64,000 bases of DNA from Demequina mangrovi. GTDB lineage: Bacteria; Actinomycetota; Actinomycetes; Actinomycetales; Demequinaceae. Below, in pieces: positions 34,027 to 46,987 of this stretch. Made by a program: the position numbers and the translations under genes. Numbering within the stretch: position 1 is the first letter of the stretch; every line of letters starts with the position of its first letter. Under the pieces are notes generated by a model that saw only the letters and a program-made list of their open reading frames with translations, searched no databases and was not told where the DNA came from. The DNA lies in NCBI RefSeq assembly GCF_000759715.1, contig NZ_BBLU01000003.1, forward strand, positions 120,298-184,297, given 5' to 3'.

Positions 34027-35322
34027 TCAGGCCGCCGGAGCGACCTTCGTCAGAGCGGACAAGAGCCTGTCGGCCCAGTTGCCACCGCGCGGCTCATAGA
34101 CATCTGCCAGCAGTCTAGACGTGAATTCCATGACCAAAGCACTAGGCAGTCCGTACCGCGTGCAGACCTTCATCACGGTCGGATGCTCGACCAGCGACGC
34201 GAACACGCGACCCAGGGAGTAGTAGCCGCCGAGGTCGTCCTTCATCATCCGGGCATAGCTCGCAAGCGCGATCTCCTGGTCGCGTGCGCCGGTCGCGTCG
34301 CGCCAGGCGACGGCGGCCTCGGTGGCCCGACGTGCGGCCTGCATCGCGTACGCGATCCCCTCGCCGTTGAAGGGGTTGACCATGCCGCCCGAGTCGCCGA
34401 CGAGCATCATGCCCGGGACGTAGTGCGGCTGGCGGTTGAAGGCCATGGGGATCGCGGCGCCCTTGATGTCGCCGACCTGCTCGCCGAGCTCCCAGTCCTC
34501 CGCGGAGTGGTCCAGCCAGTCGCGCAGCAGCGCGCGGTGGTCGAGCTTGGGCGGGGTGCCCTTGGCGCTGAGGGTGCCGAGCCCGACGTTGGCGGTGCCG
34601 TCGCCGAGCGGGAAGATCCATCCGTAGCCGGGCAGCAGGTTGCTGTTCCCGCGCTCGCCGTCCCAGATCTCGAGGTGGCCCTCCATCCACTCCTCGTCGT
34701 GACGCGGGGTGGTGAAGTACGTGCGGACGGCGACGCCGAGGGGCCGGTTGTCCTTGCGCTCGATCCCGAGCCCGAGCGCGATGCGCGCGCTCACGCCGTC
34801 CGCGGCGATCACCAGCGGCGCGCGGAGCTCGACGGGCTCGCCGACCTTGCGGCCGCGCTCGTCGGTCTCGCGGGCGGTCACGCCGACCACGCGGCCGCCC
34901 CCGGCGTAGCCGTCCTGGCGCTCGTCGCGGATCACGCCGTCGACGTGCCAGCCCTCGCGCACATCGGCGCCCGCGGCACGGGCGTGCTCGGCGAGGCGGT
35001 GGTCGAACTGGGCGCGCGGGAGCGAGAGACCGTAGTTCGGGAAGCTCTCGAGGTCGTGCCACGGGAACTCGAGGCGGTGACCGCCGCCGACCATGCGCAG
35101 GCCGTGGTTGGGGATCCACCCCTCCTCGCGCGGCGTCGGGAGGCCGATCATGTTGATCTCGCGCACCGCGCGCGGCGTGAGGCCGTCGCCGCACACCTTC
35201 TCGCGCGGGAAGCGGGTCTTCTCGAGGGCGATCACGTCGAAGCCCTCCGCCGCCAGGTAGCGAGCCGCGGCGGCCCCGCCCGGCCCGGCTCCGATCACGA
35301 TGACATCCGCCTCAGTACGCAC
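34027..35322 (-). CDS. menJ: Menaquinone reductase MenJ (geranylgeranyl reductase family)
   Basis: This 431-residue FAD enzyme has GAGPGGAAAARYLA (12-25), KVCGDGLTPRAV and the second FAD motif MLVGDSGGMVNPFNGEGI. The family includes mycobacterial MenJ (Rv0561c), which saturates one isoprene unit of the menaquinone tail. Its position directly before nuoA, with the polyprenyl synthase at the end of the operon, supports that role. A TACCCT box lies 6 nt before the GTG (TACCCT-TGACGC-GTG), so the 18-kb operon probably starts as a leaderless mRNA here. Confidence 0.87.
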   Translation of the reverse strand: MRTEADVIVIGAGPGGAAAARYLAAEGFDVIALEKTRFPREKVCGDGLTPRAVREINMIGLPTPREEGWIPNHGLRMVGGGHRLEFPWHDLESFPNYGLSLPRAQFDHRLAEHARAAGADVREGWHVDGVIRDERQDGYAGGGRVVGVTARETDERGRKVGEPVELRAPLVIAADGVSARIALGLGIERKDNRPLGVAVRTYFTTPRHDEEWMEGHLEIWDGERGNSNLLPGYGWIFPLGDGTANVGLGTLSAKGTPPKLDHRALLRDWLDHSAEDWELGEQVGDIKGAAIPMAFNRQPHYVPGMMLVGDSGGMVNPFNGEGIAYAMQAARRATEAAVAWRDATGARDQEIALASYARMMKDDLGGYYSLGRVFASLVEHPTVMKVCTRYGLPSALVMEFTSRLLADVYEPRGGNWADRLLSALTKVAPAA

Positions 35323-35440: not shown

Positions 35441-36715
35441 ATGGGCGACGCAGGGGTCACTTGGGCCGGTACTCATGCCTTCGGCGCGGCACGGCTGGTG
35501 GAGGCCGCGTCCGTCGACGACGTGCTGCGCGCGGTCCGGACCGCGCCGGGCAGGGTCAAGGCGCTGGGGACGCGCCACAGCTTCAACGACATCGCGGACA
35601 CCGACGGCACGCTCATCACCGTCACCGGGATCGAGGAGCAGCCGCTCATCGACCTCACGAGCCCCGCGTGGCCCACCGTCAACGCCCCGGCCGGCATGCG
35701 CTACGGCGTCCTGGGCCGCTGGCTGCAGAAGCGCGGCTGGGCGCTGCACAACACCGGCTCGCTCCCCCACATCTCCGTCGCCGGCGCGACCGCGACCGGC
35801 ACCCACGGGTCCGGCGCGCGCAACGGCTGCCAGTCGACGGCGCTGTGCCGCATCGAGTACGTGGGCGCCGACGGCAACCTCCACACCGCGCGGGCCGGGC
35901 AGCCGGGCTTCGAGGGCCTCGCCGTCGGGCTCGGCGCGTACGGCGTCATCACCGAGGTCACGCTGTCCATCCAGCCCACGTACGACATCCGCCAGGACGT
36001 CTACACCGGCATGCCGTGGGAGCACCTCCTGTCCGAGACGCCCGCGATCCTCGCGGACGCGTACTCGGTGTCGATCTTCACCACCTGGACCGAGCCGACG
36101 GTGCAGCAGATCTGGCGCAAGAGCGGCATCGGCCTCGATGTCGCCCCGCCCGACGAGTGGCACGGCGCGGTCCGCAGCCCCGAGTCGGACGCCCGCCTGG
36201 TCGACGGCGACCCCGACGCGCTCACGCCGCAGGGCGGCAAGCCCGGGCCGTGGAACGAGCGGCTCCCCCACTTCCGGCTCACGCACGTGCCCTCGAACGG
36301 CGCCGAGATCCAGTCGGAGTACTTCGTACCCATGGAGGTGGCGGGCGAGGCGCTCGCCGCGGTCCGCGCGCTCGGCGAGCGCATCACCCCGCACCTGCTC
36401 GTGTCCGAGCTGCGCGCGGTCGCGGCCGACGACCTGTGGCTCTCCGGCGCCTACGGCCGCGACACGCTCGCGATCCACTTCACGTGGGAGCGCTCGCCCG
36501 AGCCGGTGCGCGCGCTGCTGCCCGAGATCGAGCGCGCGCTCGAGCCCTTCGACGCGCGTCCCCACTGGGGCAAGTGGCACTCCTTCGACGCCGCCGCGAT
36601 CGCCCGCGTGCACCCGCGGATCGGCGACGCCCGCGACCTGTTCGAGCGGCTCGATCCCGCCGGCAGGTTCGTCAACGACTACCTCCTCCGCGTCGGAGCC
36701 CGGCAGGCCCGGTGA
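35441..36715 (+). CDS. aldO: Alditol oxidase (xylitol/sorbitol oxidase), covalent FAD
   Basis: This 424-residue VAO-family flavoprotein closely resembles Streptomyces AldO as I recall it. LGTRHSFNDIAD has the FAD-linking His46, ASLPHISVAG-type GSLPHISVAGATATGTHGSG binds FAD, and the C-terminal half has ERLPHFRLTHVPSNGAE, QSEYFVPME and RPHWGKWHSF with the substrate and catalytic residues. It oxidises sugar alcohols to aldoses with O2, releasing H2O2. D-arabinono-lactone oxidase is a less likely relative. The ATG follows TACGGT by 6 nt, which fits a leaderless transcript. It stands alone, 59 nt before the menF fusion. Confidence 0.86.
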   Translation: MGDAGVTWAGTHAFGAARLVEAASVDDVLRAVRTAPGRVKALGTRHSFNDIADTDGTLITVTGIEEQPLIDLTSPAWPTVNAPAGMRYGVLGRWLQKRGWALHNTGSLPHISVAGATATGTHGSGARNGCQSTALCRIEYVGADGNLHTARAGQPGFEGLAVGLGAYGVITEVTLSIQPTYDIRQDVYTGMPWEHLLSETPAILADAYSVSIFTTWTEPTVQQIWRKSGIGLDVAPPDEWHGAVRSPESDARLVDGDPDALTPQGGKPGPWNERLPHFRLTHVPSNGAEIQSEYFVPMEVAGEALAAVRALGERITPHLLVSELRAVAADDLWLSGAYGRDTLAIHFTWERSPEPVRALLPEIERALEPFDARPHWGKWHSFDAAAIARVHPRIGDARDLFERLDPAGRFVNDYLLRVGARQAR

Positions 36716-36774
36716 CGCGACACGGGATGCCGACCGCGCATCGTCCACCCCCTGCGCGGCCCTACTGTGGAGGG

Positions 36775-39144
36775 GTGACCGTCCACGCCGCCGCCCCCGG
36801 GCCCCTGCACGTCCGCACCGTCGAGATCGAGGACCCGGGCGACCTCATCGCCACGCTGCCCGAGGCCGGGATCTCGTGGGTGAGACGCGGCGAGGGCATG
36901 ATCGCGTGGGGCGAGGTGGCGCGGCTCGACACCGCCGGCGCCGAGCGGATCGACGACGCCCAGCACTGGTGGCGGCTGCTGTGCCGCCACGCCATCGTGA
37001 GCGACAGCGTCCGCACCCGCGGCACGGGTCTCGTGGCCTTCGGCTCGTTCGCGTTCGCCGACTCGTCGGAGGCCGGCGGCGCGCTCGTGGTGCCGCGCCA
37101 CATCATCGGCCGCCGCGACGGCCGCGCGTGGTTCACCACCATCGCGACCGAGGACGATGCCCCGGCGAGCCTCGACGAGGCCCTCGCCGCCGCGGTCGCC
37201 CCGGCTCCGGCGGGTCCGGTGACGCTCGCGCACGGCGACGAGCCCGCATGGACCTCCGCGGTCGATGCCGCGGTCGAGCGCATCCGCGACGGCGAGCTCG
37301 AGAAGGTGGTGCTCGCGCGCGCCGTCGAGGCCCGCGCCGAGGATCCGATCGACGTCCGCACCGTGCTCGCGCGCCTGGCCGACGAGTACCCCATGTGCTG
37401 GGCCTTCCACATCGACGGGCTGGTGGGCGCGACGCCCGAGCTGCTGGCCCGCGTCGATCACGGCCTCGTGACCTCGCGCGTGCTCGCGGGGACCATCCGG
37501 ATGACCGGCGACGACATGCGCGACCTCGCGCGGGCAGGCGCGCTCGCGCGCTCGTCGAAGGACCGCGAGGAGCACGAGTACGCCGCGCGCTCCGTCACGC
37601 AGGTGCTCGCGCGCCACTGCGGATCCGTGAACGTGCCCGACGAGCCGTTCGTGCTGCACCTGCCCAACGTCATGCACCTCGCGACCGACGTCACCGGCGT
37701 GCTGTCGCACAACGTGGACGCGCTCGAGCTCGTCGCCGAGCTGCACCCCAGCGCGGCCGTCTGCGGCACGCCGACCCTCGCCGCGGCGCGCGCGATCGAC
37801 GAGCTCGAGGGGCTCGACCGCGGACGCTACGCCGGCCCGGTCGGCTGGATCGACGCGGGCGGCGACGGCGAGTGGTGCATCGGCCTGCGCTCCGCCGAGG
37901 TGTCCCGCGAGGACCCGACCCGGCTGCGGCTGTTCGCCGGCTGCGGCATCGTGGCGGCGAGCGAGCCGGAGTCCGAGTGGGCCGAGTCCGAGGCGAAGCT
38001 CGAGCCGATGCGTCGCGCGCTCGGCGCGGAGGTCGCGGCGGAGCCTGGGCCCGAGCCCGAGCCCGAGCCCGTGGCCGTGGTCGCGCCGGAGGCCGTCGTC
38101 GAGGAGGAGCCCGCGCCGGCGGAGCAGCCCGCGTCGGCGGAGGAGCCGGCCGCCGTGGAGGAGCCTGCGCCGGCGGAGGAGCCCGAGGTCGCGCCGGAGC
38201 CCGTCGCGGTCGACGAGGCGCTCGAATCCGACGCGGACAAGAACGAGAGCGCGGAGCCCGAGCCCGAGCCCGAGGCGGAGCCGCAGGTGGTTGAGGAGCC
38301 GCCCGCCGCGAGCGAGCCGGAGCCCGAGCCCGAGCCGGCACCGGTCCGGTCGCGCCGGAGCAAGCTGGCCCCCGAGGTCGAGTTCGACGTCCCTGCCCCC
38401 GCGATCGCCTCGACCGCGCGCTACGACGTCGGCGACGACCCGGCCTTCCCGACGCTGCACCTCGACGATGCCGCGGTCGGCGACATCCCCACGTTCGCGG
38501 GCGCATCGTCACCGGCCCAGGAGCCGCAGGGCTGGGACTCCGCCGCGTGGGAGGAGCGCTACGCGTCCCGCGAGGCGGTCTGGAGCGCCTCGCCCAACGC
38601 CCAGCTGGTCGCCGAGGTCGCGGGCACCCCGGCGGGGCGCGCGCTGGACGCCGGCTGCGGCGAGGGCGCGGACGCCGTGTACCTCGCGACCCTCGGCTGG
38701 GAGGTCACCGCGATCGATATCGCGCCGACCGCGATCGCCCGCGGCCGCGACCGCGCCGAGCGGGCCGGGGCGGAGATCGCCGCACGCATCGACTGGCGCG
38801 TCGCCGACGCGACCACCGCGGACGTGCGCACGGCGTCCTACGACCTCGTCACCACGCACTACGCCCACCCCGACGGTGGGATCGAGGGGCTCGTCGGGCG
38901 TCTGGGCGCGCTGGTGGCGCCAGGAGGGATCCTGCTCGTCGTCGGTCACGACCCGTCCGATCCCCACACGCAGGAGCACCCGCGCCTCAGCAGCACGGCC
39001 TTCAGCGCGGACAAGGCGGCCGCCGGGCTCGACGCGGACGAGTGGACGGTCGAGGTCGCGCAGGTGCGCGCGCGCCCGTCGATCGACGCCGACGGCAACC
39101 CCGGCATCCGCCGCGACGCCGTCCTGAGGGCGCGCAAGGGCTGA
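36775..39144 (+). CDS. menF: Isochorismate synthase fused to a SAM-dependent methyltransferase
   Basis: This is one uninterrupted frame of 789 residues with three parts. Residues 1 to about 420 are a chorismate-binding enzyme: LEKVVLARAV, ATPELLARV, SRVLAGTIRM, ELHPSAAVCGTPTLAA, RYAGPVGWID and FAGCGIVAASEPESEW. It makes isochorismate for MenD. Residues about 420-585 are a Pro/Glu/Ala-rich acidic linker with EPEPEPEP runs. Residues 586-789 form a class I methyltransferase, with WEERYASREAVWS and the SAM motif LDAGCGEGADAV near 625. It lacks obvious MenG/UbiE motifs. The GTG is 6 nt after TACTGT, suggesting a leaderless start. The methyl acceptor is unknown, and such a fusion is unusual. Confidence 0.85.
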   Translation: MTVHAAAPGPLHVRTVEIEDPGDLIATLPEAGISWVRRGEGMIAWGEVARLDTAGAERIDDAQHWWRLLCRHAIVSDSVRTRGTGLVAFGSFAFADSSEAGGALVVPRHIIGRRDGRAWFTTIATEDDAPASLDEALAAAVAPAPAGPVTLAHGDEPAWTSAVDAAVERIRDGELEKVVLARAVEARAEDPIDVRTVLARLADEYPMCWAFHIDGLVGATPELLARVDHGLVTSRVLAGTIRMTGDDMRDLARAGALARSSKDREEHEYAARSVTQVLARHCGSVNVPDEPFVLHLPNVMHLATDVTGVLSHNVDALELVAELHPSAAVCGTPTLAAARAIDELEGLDRGRYAGPVGWIDAGGDGEWCIGLRSAEVSREDPTRLRLFAGCGIVAASEPESEWAESEAKLEPMRRALGAEVAAEPGPEPEPEPVAVVAPEAVVEEEPAPAEQPASAEEPAAVEEPAPAEEPEVAPEPVAVDEALESDADKNESAEPEPEPEAEPQVVEEPPAASEPEPEPEPAPVRSRRSKLAPEVEFDVPAPAIASTARYDVGDDPAFPTLHLDDAAVGDIPTFAGASSPAQEPQGWDSAAWEERYASREAVWSASPNAQLVAEVAGTPAGRALDAGCGEGADAVYLATLGWEVTAIDIAPTAIARGRDRAERAGAEIAARIDWRVADATTADVRTASYDLVTTHYAHPDGGIEGLVGRLGALVAPGGILLVVGHDPSDPHTQEHPRLSSTAFSADKAAAGLDADEWTVEVAQVRARPSIDADGNPGIRRDAVLRARKG

Positions 39145-39235: not shown

Positions 39236-40888
39236 CTAGACCAGCGCCTCGACCACCTCGAGGCCGCCCGCGGGCGCCGCGAGCGCGTCCCGCAGCTCGT
39301 CGCGCGACCGGACCGCACGGTGAGGCACGCGGTACCCCGCGCACAGCGCGCCGATGTCCGCTCCATGCGGCGTGGTGAACACCCGCTCGAGGTTCGCCGC
39401 CGGGGCTCCGCCGTGCTCGAGGCCCGAGAAGATGGTGCCTCCGCCGTCGTTCACCACGACGATCCGGAGCCGCGGCCGCTCCTCGCGCGGACCGATGAGC
39501 AGACCGCCCGCCTCGTGCAGGAACGTGACGTCGCCCATGAGCGCATGCACCGCGCGGCCGGCCCCGAAGGCGATGCCTGCGGCGGTGGACACCGTGCCGT
39601 CGATGCCGGCGAGCCCGCGGTTCGCGAGCAGCATCGGGGCCGCGCCCGCGAGCGCCGACGGCATGAACCGGTCGAGCGCACGCACGGGTCCCGAGGACCC
39701 GACCACGCCCCACACGTCGGGGCCGAGCGACTCCGCGAACGTCGCCGCCGCGACCCGGGGACCCCAGCCCTCGGGCGTGTGGACCCGCGCCCCCGCGGAG
39801 CGCCACTCGGCGAGCCAGGCGCGGTCCGCATCGTCCGGCGCGGTCGACCACAGCCATGACGAGGGCACGTCGCGCTCGACGCGCTGCGCATGCGGCGGAG
39901 CCTCGCGCCACCGCGCCCCGAAGCGGGCGACGATGAGCGCCGGGGCGCGCGCGATGAGCGCCTGCACGGCGCGGGTGAGCGTCGGCCGGCCGATCACGAC
40001 CACCTGGTGCACGCGCGCGGCGAGGTCGGCGCCATGCGCGGACTCGAGGAGCCGCACGTAGTCCGGGATGCAGTGGAAGCCGGAGCGCGCGAGCGAGGTC
40101 GGCTCGGCGAGCAGCGGCCATCCGTGCGCCTCGGCGACCTCGCGCGCCACGTCGCCCGCGCCGTCGCCCGCGATCACGACCCCGCGGGCCACCGGCGGGA
40201 GCGGAGCGGGCTCGGCACGCTCGGTGACGATGGGGATGCCTCCCGTGGGCGTGCGCAGCCGCGGCGGATCGCTCCACACGCCGCCGTCGGCGCCGAGCGG
40301 CTCGCGGAACGCCACGTCGAGGTGCACCGGTCCCGGGGCCGCGGCCATGTCCTCCCGCGCGCGGTCGCCCACCGCCGCGCGGACGGCCCGCTCCGCGAGC
40401 GCCGTGACGCGGTCGGGCCGTTCGCCGAGGTCGGAGGCGGGCACGTCGGCGGCCCACCGCACGAAGGCACCGAAGAGACCGACCTGATCGGTCGTCTGGT
40501 TGGCGCCGACGCCGCGCAGCTCGGCGGGCCGGTCGGCGGTGAGCAGCAGCAGCGGCACACCGCTGTGATGCGCCTCCATCACGGCGGGGAGCAGGTTGCC
40601 CACCGCGGTGCCGGAGGTGGTGACGATGGCGACGGGACGGGGGTCGCCGGCGGCGGCGCGGCCGCGCGCGATTCCGAGCGCGAGGAAGCCGGCGCTGCGC
40701 TCGTCGATGCGGACGTGGAGGCTGACGCGGGGCGCCCCGAGAGGCGGGTTGCCGGAGCCGGCCTCCGCGAGCGCGTGCGCGAGGGGTCCGGAGCGCGAGC
40801 CGGGGCTGAGCACGAAGTCCTCGACACCGCGCTCCGCGAGCGCCGCCACCATGGTGCGGGCGAAGGCTCCCGACGGATGCTCGGTCAT
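39236..40888 (-). CDS. menD: SEPHCHC synthase MenD
   Basis: This 550-residue thiamine-diphosphate enzyme joins isochorismate and 2-oxoglutarate. The N-terminal FVLSPGSRSGPLAHAL and HVRIDERSAGFLALG motifs are diagnostic, with the catalytic glutamate in RIDERS. TADRPAELRGVGANQTTDQ is also typical. The ThDP/Mg site is at GDVTFLHEAGGL...VVNDGGGTIF. It follows menC with an ATGA overlap, so the two are co-transcribed from the menC promoter. Confidence 0.95.
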   Translation of the reverse strand: MTEHPSGAFARTMVAALAERGVEDFVLSPGSRSGPLAHALAEAGSGNPPLGAPRVSLHVRIDERSAGFLALGIARGRAAAGDPRPVAIVTTSGTAVGNLLPAVMEAHHSGVPLLLLTADRPAELRGVGANQTTDQVGLFGAFVRWAADVPASDLGERPDRVTALAERAVRAAVGDRAREDMAAAPGPVHLDVAFREPLGADGGVWSDPPRLRTPTGGIPIVTERAEPAPLPPVARGVVIAGDGAGDVAREVAEAHGWPLLAEPTSLARSGFHCIPDYVRLLESAHGADLAARVHQVVVIGRPTLTRAVQALIARAPALIVARFGARWREAPPHAQRVERDVPSSWLWSTAPDDADRAWLAEWRSAGARVHTPEGWGPRVAAATFAESLGPDVWGVVGSSGPVRALDRFMPSALAGAAPMLLANRGLAGIDGTVSTAAGIAFGAGRAVHALMGDVTFLHEAGGLLIGPREERPRLRIVVVNDGGGTIFSGLEHGGAPAANLERVFTTPHGADIGALCAGYRVPHRAVRSRDELRDALAAPAGGLEVVEALV

Positions 40889-41772
40889 GCGATCACGTCC
40901 AGCGTCACGGGACCGATGACGCCGTCGCGCGGCACCACCGGCTCGCGCACGGTGTCCTCGGCGAGCAGCTCGCCGGTGCCGAGACCGCACGCGTACGGCA
41001 GCTCGGGCACCGCCCGCGCGAGCGCGACGCCGGCCGCGAGGCCCACCGAGGACTCCATCGCGCTCGAGACCACGATCGGGATGCTGTAGCGGTCGACCAC
41101 GTCGAGGCACGCGCGCACCCCGCCCATCGGCGCGACCTTGAGGACCAGGATGTCGGCGGCGCCCGCGCGCATCACCTCGTCGGCGTCGCCGGGGATCCGG
41201 ACGGACTCGTCGGCCGCGACGAGGACGTCGGTACGCCGGCGGACCTCCGCGAGCTCGGCGACGGTGCGGCACGGCTGCTCGACGTACTCGAGGCCCTGTC
41301 CGCCTCCGGCGCGCGCGGCCGCGTCGAGCTCCTTGAGCACGGTGACCGCGGTGTCGACGTCCCACGCGCCGTTCGCGTCGACCCGCACCCTGCCCTCGGG
41401 GCCCAGGGCGATCGCGACCGCCTCGACGCGCCGCGCATCGTCCCTCCAGCCGCCGGTGCCGGCGACCTTGACCTTCGCGGTGGTGCAGCCGCCCGCCTTC
41501 GCGAGCTGGGCGGCACGCCCGCCCGGGAGCTCGGGGACGATGCTGTTGACGGGCACGAGGTCGCGCACCGGCGCGGGCCACTCGCCGCGGGCGGCCTCCA
41601 TCGCGGCCTCCCACCAGCGGGAGGCGCGCTCGGGCGTGTAGTCGTCGAACGGGGAGTACTCGCCCCAGTGGTCCCGTCCGTCCTGGTCCGTACCTCGGAT
41701 GAGGACGCCGTGGCGCTCGGTGACGCCGCGGAAGCGCGTCGACAGCGCGACGCGGAAGGGACGGAACTCCAT
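40885..41772 (-). CDS. menC: o-Succinylbenzoate synthase MenC
   Basis: This 295-residue enolase-superfamily enzyme dehydrates SHCHC to o-succinylbenzoate. The catalytic lysine is in AKVKVAG, with metal ligands Asp in VRVDANGAWD, Glu in EYVEQPCR and Asp in VAADESVR, and the second lysine in LVLKVAPMGG. The upstream box TAGGCT is 6 nt from the ATG (leaderless). It is divergent from menB and shares a mirrored 18-bp promoter sequence with it. Confidence 0.94.
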   Translation of the reverse strand: MEFRPFRVALSTRFRGVTERHGVLIRGTDQDGRDHWGEYSPFDDYTPERASRWWEAAMEAARGEWPAPVRDLVPVNSIVPELPGGRAAQLAKAGGCTTAKVKVAGTGGWRDDARRVEAVAIALGPEGRVRVDANGAWDVDTAVTVLKELDAAARAGGGQGLEYVEQPCRTVAELAEVRRRTDVLVAADESVRIPGDADEVMRAGAADILVLKVAPMGGVRACLDVVDRYSIPIVVSSAMESSVGLAAGVALARAVPELPYACGLGTGELLAEDTVREPVVPRDGVIGPVTLDVIA

Positions 41773-41793: not shown

Positions 41794-41891
41794 TCCCAAT
41801 GACAGATGTGAGGCATGGGGTGGGTGGGACGGGCGGGCCCGGTCCGCCTCGGCCGTCCCCGCTATCACACCCGTCACATCTGTCATTGGGA
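41794..41891. promoter_or_regulatory. Mirrored 18-bp repeats in the menC/menB divergent promoters
   Basis: TCCCAATGACAGATGTGA (41794-41811) and its exact inverted copy TCACATCTGTCATTGGGA (41874-41891) face each other across 62 nt. Each stands about 11-18 nt upstream of a leaderless -10 box (TAGGCT for menC, TACGCT at 41903-41908 for menB), so each covers the -35 region of its gene. This suggests a common regulator of the two men transcription units. Confidence 0.7.
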
Positions 41892-41916
41892 ATCGGCCGC
41901 ACTACGCTCGGGTCCC

Positions 41917-42846
41917 ATGAGCGACATCCCGGCCCAGGTCTCCGACCTCATGGATCCGACGCAGTGGCGCGCGATCGACGGCTTCCCCGACTCGGACATC
42001 ACGTACCACCGGTGGGTGGCGCGCAGCGAGGACGGCGAGCAGGACCTCCCCGCCGTGCGCATCGCCTTCAACCGGCCCGAGGTCCGCAACGCCTTCCGTC
42101 CGCAGACGGTCGACGAGCTCTACCGGGCGATGGACCACGCCCGCATGACCCCCGACGTCGCGGCGATCATCCTCACGGGCAACGGCCCGGCGGCCGATGG
42201 CGTCCACGCGTTCTGCTCCGGAGGCGACCAGCGCATCCGCGGCAAGGACGGCTACCTCTACGAGGGCACCGCGCAGGACGCCCCCGCGTACGGCGGGCGC
42301 CTCCACATCCTCGAGGTGCAGCGCCTCATGCGGCACTCCCCCAAGGTCGTCATCGCGGCCGTCAACGGCTGGGCGGCCGGCGGCGGGCACTCGCTGCATG
42401 TGGTCTCCGACCTCTCGATCGCGAGCCGCGAGCACGCGCGCTTCAAGCAGACGGACGCCAACGTCGGGTCCTTCGACGCGGGCTACGGGTCGGCGCTGCT
42501 CGCCCGCCAGGTGGGCGACAAGCGCGCGCGGGAGATCTTCTTCCTCGCCCGCGAGTACTCGGCGGACGATGCGGAGCGCTGGGGCGGCGTCAACCAGTCC
42601 GTCCCGCACGCCGAGCTCGAGGCGACGGCGCTCGAGTACGCCCGCATCGTCGCGACCAAGTCGCCGCAGGCGATCCGCATGCTGAAGTTCGCCTTCAACC
42701 TTGCCGATGACGGACTCGCGGGACAGCAGGTGTTCGCGGGCGAGGCCACCCGCATGGCCTACATGACGGAGGAGGCGCAGGAGGGACGCGACGCGTTCCT
42801 CGAGCGCCGCGATCCCGACTGGACCCGGTTCCCGTACGCGTACTGA
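41917..42846 (+). CDS. menB: 1,4-Dihydroxy-2-naphthoyl-CoA synthase MenB
   Basis: This 309-residue crotonase-fold enzyme closes the naphthoate ring. AFNRPEVRNAFRPQTVDEL, FCSGGDQRIRGKDGY, AVNGWAAGGGHSLHVVSDL, ANVGSFDAGYGSALLARQVG and the C-terminal RRDPDWTRFPY are typical of actinobacterial MenB. I chose the ATG at 41917 over an upstream in-frame start because it lies 8 nt after TACGCT, as in a leaderless or nearly leaderless promoter, and the longer frame would run through the mirrored operator. Confidence 0.95.
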   Translation: MSDIPAQVSDLMDPTQWRAIDGFPDSDITYHRWVARSEDGEQDLPAVRIAFNRPEVRNAFRPQTVDELYRAMDHARMTPDVAAIILTGNGPAADGVHAFCSGGDQRIRGKDGYLYEGTAQDAPAYGGRLHILEVQRLMRHSPKVVIAAVNGWAAGGGHSLHVVSDLSIASREHARFKQTDANVGSFDAGYGSALLARQVGDKRAREIFFLAREYSADDAERWGGVNQSVPHAELEATALEYARIVATKSPQAIRMLKFAFNLADDGLAGQQVFAGEATRMAYMTEEAQEGRDAFLERRDPDWTRFPYAY

Positions 42847-43256: not shown

Positions 43257-43967
43257 TCAGCCCAGCCGCTCCTCGACCAGCGCCGGCACCGCCTCCTCGA
43301 TGGGATCGCGGATGACCAGCGAGGCGTCCCGGTCCCAGGACGTCGGCGACGCGTTGACGATGACCAGCGACGCCCCCGCCGCGAGCGCCTCGCCCGCGAG
43401 CGCGGCGACCGGGTAGACCTGCAGCGTGGTGCCGATCGCGACGAAGGTGTCGCACGTGCGAGCGGCCCGCGAGGCCCTCCTGAGGTCCGCCGAACGCAGC
43501 GCCTCGCCGAAGTACACGACGTCGGGCTTGAGGATCCCTCCGCAGTACGGGCACCGGGGATCCGGCTCGACGACGAGCCGGTCGATGACGTCGCGCGTCG
43601 GGCAGCCGAAGCCGCAGTCCAGGCACGACGTGGTCGCGAGCGCGCCGTGCATCTCCACCACCGCATCGTCCGGCGTCGCGGCTGCCTGGTGCAGCCCGTC
43701 GATGTTCTGGGTGAGCACGTCGCGGCACAGCCCGGCCTCGACGAGGCGTGCGAGCGCACGATGCGCCTCCGCGGGCCGCGCGGACCACGCCGGGTGCGCG
43801 GCCCAGTCGCGCCAGCCCTCCTCGCGCGCGGCGCGCTCGCCGACGAACACGTCGAGCTCGAGCAGCCGCGCGCGCGACGGATCGCGGGTCCAGACGCCGT
43901 CCGGGCCGCGGAAGTCGGGGATCCCGGCCGCAGTCGAGAGCCCGGCGCCGGTGAGGACGGTGATCAC
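43257..43967 (-). CDS. Sirtuin-type NAD-dependent protein deacylase
   Basis: This 236-residue Sir2 protein has GAGLSTAAGIPDFRG (7-21), TQNIDGLH (86-93), the catalytic His107 in EMHG and the zinc cysteines 115, 118, 139 and 142. It removes acyl groups from lysines using NAD+. The GTG start follows CATGAT by 6 nt (leaderless). It is convergent with the lipoprotein gene. Confidence 0.93.
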   Translation of the reverse strand: MITVLTGAGLSTAAGIPDFRGPDGVWTRDPSRARLLELDVFVGERAAREEGWRDWAAHPAWSARPAEAHRALARLVEAGLCRDVLTQNIDGLHQAAATPDDAVVEMHGALATTSCLDCGFGCPTRDVIDRLVVEPDPRCPYCGGILKPDVVYFGEALRSADLRRASRAARTCDTFVAIGTTLQVYPVAALAGEALAAGASLVIVNASPTSWDRDASLVIRDPIEEAVPALVEERLG

Positions 43968-43985
43968 CCGTCCATCATGGACCGC

Positions 43986-45074
43986 TCAGCTGATGGCGAT
44001 GTCGGTGGAGTTGCCGACGCCCGAGCTGGGCACCAGCTCGAACCAGGTCTTGCCCGCCTTGAGCTCGACCTCGTCGCCGTCGAGCGTGGTGAGCACGAAG
44101 GGGTCGAACTGGCCCGCCTTGCTCCACGTGATCGGGATGTACTTGTTCCCCGAGGCGACGTAGCCCTCACCGGACTCGCCCGCGACCAGGGTCTCGGGTA
44201 CCGAGGAGGTCGACGACCCCGAGGTGTAGCGCACCTTGACCCACAGCATCACCACGTTGTCGGCCGTCAGCTGGGTGCCGGCGGAGGTCACGTGGGCCTC
44301 GCCGTCCTCGTAGCGCTCCCACACGCGGTCCGACTTGTTCCAGCGCCACTCGGGGAGCGCGCGCGGCGACATCGTGATGTCGATGAACGAGGCCTTCTCG
44401 CCCTCGAGCTGCGCGGTCGCCTCGGACGCGGGGTAGGCGATCTCCCACTGCGCGTCCGGCGCGTCGGCGTCGGTCTGCTCGAGGAACTTCGCGAGGTAGC
44501 CGTGCAGGTTGTGCGGCGCCGAGCGGGTGCTCGTGCGGTAGAAGCCGTAGTCGCCGCGGTCCTGCGTGATGATCTCCTGGCCCGAGCTCGCGGTCGAGGA
44601 GATGAAGCGCGACTGCGCGCCGGAGAAGATGAGCGGGCCGTCGAACGAGCCCATGATGTTCTTGTCCATCGGCCGCATCGAGCGGATCGGGCCCACCGAC
44701 TCGGGGTACTCGGACTGGAACACCGCGACGAAGCGCGAGATGCCGTACTCGACGTACTCCTCGAAGACCACGTCGGCCTTGTCCAGGTTCTCCTGAGGGC
44801 GCGCGGCCTCGGTGTTCTCGATCTTGATCGACAGCGCCGGGCGGTTCAGCTCCTTCTTGGTCGCGTCGGACGCGTCGACACCGGTGAGGGGCCAGGCCAC
44901 CTCGGGGGTCGGGTCCTCGGGCGCGGGCGGCAGCGCGACGGCGGAGACCGAGGGCTCCGGGGACGCGACGGACACGGTGCTGGTGGGACCGCTCTCGGTG
45001 GCGGGCGAGCAACCGACGAGGGTCAGGGCAGCGGCGGCGGTCGCCGTCGTCGCGGCGGCCAATCGGGTCATCAT
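43986..45074 (-). CDS. DUF3048 (YerB-like) lipoprotein
   Basis: This 362-residue protein has a lipobox LVGC (Cys22) after a short signal peptide. A Ser/Pro/Thr-rich spacer follows, and then a DUF3048 domain: RPALSIKIENTEAARPQ, YVEYGISRFVAVFQS, VGPIRSMRPMD and FSGAQSRF. The C-terminal part (about 240-362) matches the second YerB-type module, ending TWFELVPSSG. The function is unknown; it is exported and membrane-anchored. I chose the ATG at 45074, which follows TAGAAT by 7 nt, over a GTG-like start 24 nt upstream. Its promoter is back to back with that of menE. Confidence 0.85.
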   Translation of the reverse strand: MMTRLAAATTATAAAALTLVGCSPATESGPTSTVSVASPEPSVSAVALPPAPEDPTPEVAWPLTGVDASDATKKELNRPALSIKIENTEAARPQENLDKADVVFEEYVEYGISRFVAVFQSEYPESVGPIRSMRPMDKNIMGSFDGPLIFSGAQSRFISSTASSGQEIITQDRGDYGFYRTSTRSAPHNLHGYLAKFLEQTDADAPDAQWEIAYPASEATAQLEGEKASFIDITMSPRALPEWRWNKSDRVWERYEDGEAHVTSAGTQLTADNVVMLWVKVRYTSGSSTSSVPETLVAGESGEGYVASGNKYIPITWSKAGQFDPFVLTTLDGDEVELKAGKTWFELVPSSGVGNSTDIAIS

Positions 45075-45081
45075 GCCGAGA

Positions 45082-45110
45082 ATTCTAGGTCTGCTCATAG
45101 GGTGGTCCGT
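45082..45110. promoter_or_regulatory. Divergent leaderless promoters of DUF3048 gene and menE
   Basis: ATTCTA (45082-45087) is TAGAAT on the minus strand, 7 nt from the DUF3048 start. TAGGGT (45098-45103) is 7 nt from the menE GTG. Only 36 nt separate the two start codons, so the promoters must overlap. Confidence 0.6.
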
Positions 45111-46121
45111 GTGACATACGCTCGCCTCGACACCGGTGCGGCGCGCGCGATCGCCGACGCGCTCGCCGGCCGCGTCGCCGGGATCGCGGTGGATACCTCG
45201 GGTTCTACGGGCCGCCCGCGCGAGGTGCTGGTCTCGGGCGAGGCGATTCGTGCCGGAGTGTCGCTTTCGTCACGTCGGCTCGGGGGCGACGCCCACCAGC
45301 TGCTCGCGCTCCCGCCGGAGCGCATCGGCGGCGCGCTCGTGATCGCGCGCGCGACCGTCGCGGGCACCGCGCTCGTGCGCATGCCGATGGGACCGTTCAC
45401 GGCTGCCGGCTTCGCCGCCGCCGCGCGTTCCCTGCCGTCGGGACCGCGCCAGGTGTCGCTGGTCCCCACGCAGGTCCGCCGCCTGCTCGCGGACCCCGAG
45501 GGCCGCGACGCGCTCGCCGGCTTCCACGCGGTGCTCGTGGGCGGCGCCGCCCTGCCCGAGCGCGACGCGCCGTCGAACATCGTGCGCACCTACGGCATGA
45601 GCGAGACCGCGGGCGGCTGCGTCTACGACGGCCTCGCGCTCGACGGTGTGGGCCTGCGCATCGCCGACGACGGCCGCGTGATGATCTCCGGACCGACGCT
45701 CGCGGACGGCTACGCGGACGGTCACGGCGCGGACTTCGTCGAGATCGACGGCGAGCGCTGGTTCCGCACGAGCGACCTGGGCGAGCTGCACGACGGCCGG
45801 CTCACGGTGCACGGCCGCGCCGACCATGTCATCAACACCGGCGGCGTCAAGGTGCACCCGCAGCGCATCGAGCTCGCGCTCGAGCGCGCCGGCGCCGCGG
45901 CCGCCGCGGTGGTGGGCCTCCCCGACCCCGAATGGGGCGAACGGGTGGTCGCGGTGGTCGAGGACGGCCCGGACGATGCGGCGCTCGCCGCCGCCGTCGC
46001 CGATCTACCCCCGTACGCGAGGCCCCGGCGCATCGTCCACGTCGACGCGGTGCCCCGCACCGCAGGTGGGAAGATTGACCGGCCGGCCGCGCGTGCGCTG
46101 GCGAGCGAGGAGGACCGATGA
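45111..46121 (+). CDS. menE: o-Succinylbenzoate-CoA ligase MenE
   Basis: This 336-residue acyl-CoA synthetase of the short actinobacterial MenE type has the P-loop DTSGSTGRPREV, the core TYGMSETAGGC, RTSDLGEL and a C-terminal TAGGKIDR with the adenylation lysine. It activates o-succinylbenzoate for MenB. It starts at GTG 45111 after a leaderless -10 box and overlaps menA (ATGA). The 336 residues are near-normal for this branch, which lacks part of the N-terminal domain found in longer ligases. Confidence 0.93.
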   Translation: MTYARLDTGAARAIADALAGRVAGIAVDTSGSTGRPREVLVSGEAIRAGVSLSSRRLGGDAHQLLALPPERIGGALVIARATVAGTALVRMPMGPFTAAGFAAAARSLPSGPRQVSLVPTQVRRLLADPEGRDALAGFHAVLVGGAALPERDAPSNIVRTYGMSETAGGCVYDGLALDGVGLRIADDGRVMISGPTLADGYADGHGADFVEIDGERWFRTSDLGELHDGRLTVHGRADHVINTGGVKVHPQRIELALERAGAAAAAVVGLPDPEWGERVVAVVEDGPDDAALAAAVADLPPYARPRRIVHVDAVPRTAGGKIDRPAARALASEEDR

Positions 46122-46987
46122 CCACGACCGCCGACTGGGTGGCAGGCGCCCGACCCCGGACACTCTGGACCGGCGCGGTCCCCGTGATCGTGGGCTCCGC
46201 CTGCGCGATCGCGGAGGACGGCTTCCAGCTCCTTCCGGCGGTGCTCGCCCTCGGCGTCGCGCTCGCGCTCCAGGTGGGTTCGAACTACGCCAACGACTAC
46301 TCGGACGGGATCCGCGGCACCGACGTCGACCGCATCGGGCCCGAGCGCCTGGTGGCCTCGGGCAAGGCCCTGCCGCGCTCGGTCAAGCTCGCCGCGTACG
46401 CGTCCTTCGCCGTGGGCGCGCTGCTAGGGCTGGCCCTCGTCGTGGTGTCCGGGGTGTGGTGGCTGCTCGCGGTCGGCGCCGTCGCCATCGTGGCGGCCTG
46501 GACCTACACCGGCTCGTCGCGCCCGTACGGCTACGCGGGATTCGGCGAGATCAGCGTCTTCATCTTCTTCGGCCCCGTCGCGACGCTCGGCACGCTGCTG
46601 ACTCAGACCGGGAGCATCACGTTCTACTCGCTGTGGGCCTCGGCGGGCGTGGGGCTCTACGCGGTCGCGCTGCTGCTGGTCAACAACATCCGCGACATCG
46701 AGACGGACGCCCTCGCGGGCAAGCGCACGCTCGCGGTCAAGGTCGGCGAGCTCCGCGCGCGCCAGCTCTTCGCCGGCGCCGTCACGCTGCCGATCGTGTG
46801 CGCGGTGCTCGTCGCGTTCGCGCACCCGTGGGCGCTCATCGCGACGATGGTCGCGCTGCCGTCCGTGGTCATCGCCTTCGGGATGCGCATGGGCGCCGCG
46901 GGCCGGAACTTCGGCGTGATGTTCCAGGGCATCAGCGGCGTCGGGCTCGCGTACGGGCTCCTGCTCGCCGTGGGGATCGCGCTCTAG
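46118..46987 (+). CDS. menA: 1,4-Dihydroxy-2-naphthoate polyprenyltransferase MenA
   Basis: This 289-residue UbiA-family membrane enzyme attaches the prenyl tail. The two Asp-rich motifs are SNYANDYSDGIRGTD near 52-66 and NNIRDIETDALAGKRTL near 190-206, and ARPRTLW is near the N-terminus. About nine helices are present. It is translationally coupled to menE. Its stop overlaps the end of the convergent DUF4229 gene by 4 nt. Confidence 0.94.
   Translation: MTTTADWVAGARPRTLWTGAVPVIVGSACAIAEDGFQLLPAVLALGVALALQVGSNYANDYSDGIRGTDVDRIGPERLVASGKALPRSVKLAAYASFAVGALLGLALVVVSGVWWLLAVGAVAIVAAWTYTGSSRPYGYAGFGEISVFIFFGPVATLGTLLTQTGSITFYSLWASAGVGLYAVALLLVNNIRDIETDALAGKRTLAVKVGELRARQLFAGAVTLPIVCAVLVAFAHPWALIATMVALPSVVIAFGMRMGAAGRNFGVMFQGISGVGLAYGLLLAVGIAL

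Follow-up and report, generated by a model that had tools for sequence, protein, structure and literature searches.

The window, a stretch of 64,000 nucleotides from the genome of the mangrove-soil bacterium Demequina mangrovi, carries a group of men genes that includes a gene in which menF and a methyltransferase (MT) share a single open frame (36775 to 39144, forward strand; 789 aa, GTG start). Upstream of it are a MenJ-like gene of the geranylgeranyl reductase family on the reverse strand (34027 to 35322), over the TIGR02032 cut-off and below that of the MenJ equivalog NF045655 (231.5 vs 700), and, between this gene and menF, a FAD-linked oxidoreductase gene (35441 to 36715; TIGR01679, below cut-off). 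The latter occupies the site where the outgroup genome G047 has menG, and was seen in many, not all, loci of the family. Downstream, menD (39236 to 40885; TIGR00173 over cut-off) and menC (40885 to 41772; NF002782 over cut-off) lie on the reverse strand. They are followed on the forward strand by menB (41815 to 42846; NF006186 and TIGR01929 over cut-off), whose true start is probably further in, by an open frame with an unsettled start (43647 to 46121) that encodes a menE-like ligase in its last third (residues 510 to 815; NF005877 269.8 bits, below the cut-off of 345), and by menA (46118 to 46987; NF004751 and TIGR00751 over cut-off).

An earlier note, made from the sequence, had described a 789-codon frame encoding MenF, a Pro/Glu linker of about 165 residues and a class I SAM-dependent methyltransferase. 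The frame is indeed open from 36775 to 39144, both domains were matched by profile models, and 166 aa separate them. The MenF domain (36775 to 38028, residues 1 to 418) includes a Pfam Chorismate_bind match (residues 157 to 408, 1.2e-72) and exceeded the cut-off of the NCBIfam isochorismate synthase model TIGR00543 (265.1 bits, cut-off 224.75); that of the E. coli MenF equivalog NF011588 was not reached (117.6 of 488). Among solved structures, DhbC (3os6) and EntC (5jxz) are its closest relatives. Residues K177 and E222, invariant in 22 aligned rows, align with K147 and E197 of EntC, which we take to be the catalytic Lys and Glu. Judged by model score and catalytic positions, residues 1 to 418 are an intact isochorismate synthase. 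The D. mangrovi protein, which resembles MenF/EntC/DhbC over the whole N-terminal domain, differs from these enzymes by the linker and methyltransferase added at its C-terminus.

The linker (38029 to 38526, forward strand, residues 419 to 584) is acidic and rich in Pro (34), Glu (35) and Ala (33), with acidic residues exceeding basic ones by 39, and its DNA consists of GAGCCC-type tandem repeats of 6, 18, 36 and 54 nt. At its MT end is a conserved, non-repetitive block (38359 to 38526, forward strand), present in seven of the 12 fusions found in the family, all seven with linkers longer than 100 aa. We considered that the block might be a copied domain and rejected this: in nine genomes searched, six of them fused, it was present in their five long-linker fusions and gave, beyond the fusions, two weak matches judged to be chance (one at E 0.007 with two stops in it, the other at E 0.058). 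The MT domain (38527 to 39141, forward strand, residues 585 to 789) matched Pfam methyltransferase models at residues 624 to 720 (best 4.9e-14), and its GCGEG SAM motif is invariant in 24 aligned MTs. Across 10 genome pairs (eight fused, two separate), dN/dS was 0.06 to 0.23 for the MT and 0.06 to 0.22 for MenF. The MT is under purifying selection comparable to that on MenF.

We compared the menF locus in all 47 Demequinaceae genomes returned by a family search. The fusion was found in frame in 12 of them, the source genome included, so the two halves are not encoded separately in all close relatives. Linkers range from 8 to 174 aa, and five of the 11 other fused genomes have linkers of 8 to 28 aa. 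These 11 comprise D. iriomotensis, D. gelatinilytica, D. subtropica, D. rhizosphaerae, D. maris, D. soli, D. pelophila, D. lignilytica, D. sediminis, Demequina sp. SYSU T00192 and MAG Ww146; the D. sediminis fusion sits on a complete chromosome (NZ_AP027736.1). The menF-MT fusion is real. Another 16 genomes have a separate MT gene beside menF (15) or menD (one), and in the 15 the MT match begins 71 to 745 nt past the menF stop. The remaining 19 have no MT beside menF. No match spanning MenF through the MT was found among the matches listed for 52 other-family genomes of the order, nor among those listed for the 196 other genomes from a search of the class. A few loci depart from these arrangements. 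In G039 (L129, L137), menF and the MT are about 14 kb apart, apparently through an insertion, with the MT still beside menD and menC. In G041 (L131), a genome at 50% completeness, the menF match stops at residue 406 and the frame continues to 619 aa, followed by a separate MT, which looks like a frameshift. G042 has a second, partial menF copy (G042:C8:884338-884616; query residues 329 to 421, 80% identity), which lies some 12.5 kb past the complete menF.

A five-gene tree (MenF, the MenJ-like reductase, NuoA, MenD and MenC; a quick tree search, with some gappy or long rows) grouped the 12 fused genomes together with G025 and G026 (D. phytophila and D. silvatica) in one clade (SH-aLRT 100). 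Two MT trees were made, both without 11 duplicate loci and the second also without the long-branch rows L138, L141 and L176. In the second, the 12 fused MTs formed one clade (100/98) and the 16 separate MTs another (100/99), with the union of both at 88/81. Since the five-gene tree does not place the fused and the separate clade as sisters, the MT was gained twice or by transfer, or was lost several times. The genomes G025 and G026, although nested in the fused clade, bear a separate-type MT at the place of the fused one. Compared in 200-nt bins with two fused relatives, G025 is 78 to 91% identical over menF and menD and 53 to 72% identical across the MT, where it shares 71 to 80% with the separate-type G016. 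The MTs of both species have their own leader and ribosome site. Forcing them with the fused MTs was not rejected at 0.05 in an AU test (p 0.085); the case for replacement therefore rests on the 100/99 clade support, the nucleotide mosaic and the leader with its ribosome site. The simplest reading of these comparisons is a single fusion that one lineage later reversed through in-place replacement by a separate MT. His-rich stretches directly before the MT domain are common in relatives. They were noted in L098, L100, L105, L127, L166, L173, L195 and L200, for example MSHSHSHPE and MTHPEHAHAPGAHTHADHTHA, and possibly bind metal. Several menF linkers end in HVHP, HAHG or HHHG pieces, absent from the D. 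mangrovi linker end, and their likeness to the MT leaders suggests that the end of menF was fused to a leader that the MT already had. The genus displays, side by side, loci with no MT, a separate MT, a short-linker fusion, a long-linker fusion and an apparent replacement by a separate gene.

What the MT acts on is approached here through its relatives. The nearest solved chains, all distant (E 4.7e-13 to 1.6e-5 for those other than YtkW), include Slr1183 (best, 4.7e-13), thiol methyltransferase 1, YtkW, Rv0560c and TehB. For thiol methyltransferases the sequence gave a distant match (9h0d, 4e-09), and the TPMT model PF05724 scored 29.6 bits (cut-off 26). Every NCBIfam model that matched the domain was far below its cut-off, including the TehB models (33.3 to 40.6 bits, cut-offs 218 to 303); the Pfam TehB model PF03848 (26.4 bits) was above its looser cut-off of 20.4. 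Whole-domain matches and a joint tree established homology with an actinobacterial MT family linked to flavoproteins. Among 31 MT relatives outside Demequinaceae, nine, in other actinobacteria, are fused to a thioredoxin-reductase-like flavoprotein (L161, L163, L164, L168, L170, L189, L190, L192, L193), and six follow one on the same strand, the flavoprotein match beginning 0.9 to 1.2 kb upstream. For the other 16, no such partner was seen in the available stretch. The domains of L163, L168 and L170 were checked with curated models and the CPYC motif is present. Two Demequina paralogues (L138, L141) carry the same flavoprotein-MT fusion. The MT of these actinobacterial fusions is C-terminal, as in D. 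mangrovi, and 43 to 52% identical to the D. mangrovi domain, but its partner is a FAD/NAD(P) oxidoreductase with CPYC rather than MenF. Neither fused to the D. mangrovi MT nor just upstream of it did we find this flavoprotein; the fused partner is MenF. The FAD-linked oxidoreductase at 35441 to 36715 is of a different kind.

Some residues distinguish the MTs linked to MenF, fused and separate alike. In a comparison that left out 11 duplicate loci and did not use 12 further loci, H731 was present in 27 of 28 and H735 in all 28, each against 4 of 23 relatives elsewhere, and D729 in 28 of 28 against 11 of 23.

Our preferred reading, which we regard as having an even chance of being correct, is a bifunctional protein composed of the MenF for DMK-9(H4) and an independent small-molecule methyltransferase, tethered for joint production and not for obligatory channelling. 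The fusion protein would be read from a leaderless-type GTG start. Its N-terminal domain would convert chorismate to isochorismate on the way to DMK-9(H4), and its C-terminal domain, distant kin of TehB, Slr1183 and the thiol methyltransferases, would be held on a flexible Pro/Glu tether and would not be a menaquinone methyltransferase. This domain would most likely have a methyl acceptor of its own, a soluble compound of thiol, hydroxyl or metalloid type; both the activity and this substrate class are extrapolated from the relatives. The fusion would serve joint production and location. Channelling, which the earlier note had raised, finds no support in the sequence comparisons: linkers as short as 8 aa among lengths of 8 to 174 aa, separate genes in relatives and the separate-type MT of two species argue against an obligatory form of it. 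Several observations run against the bifunctional reading. The partner of the MT elsewhere is a flavoprotein and not MenF (15 of 31 loci); of the 19 family genomes that have no MT at menF, 13 are also without MenG; MenF-linked MTs of the fused and separate types are united at only 88/81; the AU test did not reject a placement of the two replacement MTs with the fused ones; and GTGs behind GAG repeats in the linker could permit internal starts.

Fusions of MenF with other enzymes are not new in themselves. PHYLLO of algae and plants is described, in the portion of text available to us, as a MenF-MenD-MenC-MenH fusion (PMC2412073). PHYLLO, however, joins Men enzymes of successive steps (PMC2412073), whereas the methyltransferase joined to MenF in D. 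mangrovi belongs to no known Men step. What is new here is a methyltransferase as the fusion partner of MenF; we recognised no description of such a fusion in the open-licence literature searched. The fusion connects menaquinone biosynthesis with a methyltransferase family that had been an orphan, in a genus with an unmethylated quinone and mostly without a recognisable menG. Elsewhere that family has a redox flavoprotein as its fusion partner, so the two partners together are leads to the MT substrate.

An explanation that we consider unlikely, yet worth taking seriously, is that an unrelated detoxification or housekeeping MT came to lie behind menF and that the frames then merged at a nearly neutral junction, with no metabolic link to MenF. 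The wide span of linker lengths (8 to 174 aa), the flavoprotein pairing of 15 of the 31 relatives outside the family, the 19 of 47 family genomes with no MT at menF and the two species with a separate MT instead would all be expected from it. It accounts less well for the 28 of 47 genomes in which the MT has stayed next to menF or menD, an apparent replacement notwithstanding, and for the residues common to MenF-linked MTs (H731, H735). The persistence of the neighbourhood, even through that replacement, favours a physiological link of the MT to the men branch, which we hold to be on balance probable. A narrower version of that link, in which the MT has its substrate within the chorismate-to-naphthoquinone branch (isochorismate, DHNA, the C-3-free quinone as a thiol adduct, or some minor pool of quinones), is in our view doubtful. 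If true, it would add an unrecorded branch in a lineage mostly without menG, and its methylated metabolite would be new for the Demequina literature searched.

The bifunctional reading also presumes that a single polypeptide is made, and the start signals of the locus were inspected. A TANNNT (-10-like) box, TACTGT, lies 6 nt before the GTG start (36763 to 36768, forward strand). Of the 47 family loci (menF loci L091-L136 and the window), 44 have such a box 5 to 8 nt ahead of the menF start, compared with 0 to 0.7% for control offsets within those upstream stretches. Leaderless mRNAs are numerous in actinobacteria, and a box at this distance fits one, which suggests that menF mRNA is leaderless in Demequinaceae. 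According to the earlier note, the two domains are not separated by an internal start that has a ribosome site. This stood for the MT boundary, where none of the 12 fusions has a GGAGG-type site; by comparison, of the 16 separate MT genes 13 were scanned, and 10 of these have GGAGG or AGGAGG 4 to 8 nt before a start. It did not stand for the linker, where in-frame GTGs at 38155 and 38287 are preceded by AGGAG (9 nt) and GAGG (11 nt), both among GAG repeats, and could be internal starts. GTGs preceded by GAG repeats also occur in the linkers of other fusions, so that several share this feature. The G040 fusion has a GGAGG before a GTG within the MT domain. Two products from one frame, with internal initiation in the linker or linker cleavage freeing the MT so that the fusion is merely apparent, strike us as improbable. 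The two GTGs, and a Shine-Dalgarno-like match with an in-frame start in the scanned stretch of seven of the 12 fusions, speak for this possibility, but five fusions have no match at all and those of D. mangrovi sit in GAG repeats. We infer that one polypeptide is present in the cell.

The MT could also be imagined as a MenG substitute that fills in for the lost gene by methylating DMK, or a precursor, weakly or in certain conditions only. MenG/UbiE (TIGR01934) is likewise a class I SAM methyltransferase, and D. mangrovi has no MenG over the TIGR01934 cut-off in its genome (best 49.6 bits vs 158.35). The family genomes with such a MenG number six (G013, G019, G021, G033, G044 and G046), none with an MT at menF, and MenG over cut-off is absent from all 28 genomes with an MT at menF or menD and from 13 of the 19 others. 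In other families, 15 of 16 genomes have MenG over cut-off, and in 11 of these 15 menG lies less than 300 bp from menF on the opposite strand; by this comparison, menG, once a neighbour of menF, is gone from most Demequina genomes. Substitution would also draw on a 2026 survey in which, according to the part available, 39 species without menG/ubiE make MK (PMC13386864), so that quinone methyltransferases beyond menG/ubiE are possible.

Against this stand the quinones of the host and the sequence of the MT. The predominant menaquinone of Lysinimicrobium mangrovi NBRC 105856T is given as DMK-9(H4) in the paper on its draft genome (PMC4223460), and not as a methylated menaquinone. Lysinimicrobium was merged into Demequina in an article whose available text gives the quinone as DMK(H4) at one point and, in describing the family, as DMK-9(H2) (PMC6113628). 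DMK is likewise reported for the genus Demequina in extracts of two further articles (PMC4400432, PMC11233565). A Men pathway without menG is stated to yield DMK only (PMC4746308, in part), with which the DMK of the genus and the missing menG in most Demequina agree. Given a host reported to produce DMK, the MT is a poor candidate for a quinone methyltransferase of the kind suggested by the survey, and an MT acting as MenG would need to be nearly silent. The earlier note's remark that the MT does not look like MenG agrees with its scores, which were far below cut-off for TIGR01934 (22.9 bits vs 158.35) and also below for PF01209 (14.4 vs 20.1). Since 13 of the 19 genomes without an MT at menF are also without MenG, the MT is not required in MenG-less Demequina. 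The association between MenG loss and an MT at menF comes down to two independent pairs, and we set it aside as a statistical link. On the strength of DMK-9(H4) and the MT sequence, we rejected substitution for MenG as the main reading and retain it as a very improbable rival.

Finally, a sequencing or assembly error, of which the earlier note had named the former as a possible refutation and for which a repetitive linker in a genome published as a MiSeq draft (PMC4223460, as excerpted) might be invoked, was rejected as having a negligible chance of being the explanation, since the same in-frame fusion recurs across Demequinaceae in 11 other genomes, one of them complete and five with linkers of only 8 to 28 aa, and a local error is not needed to account for it.
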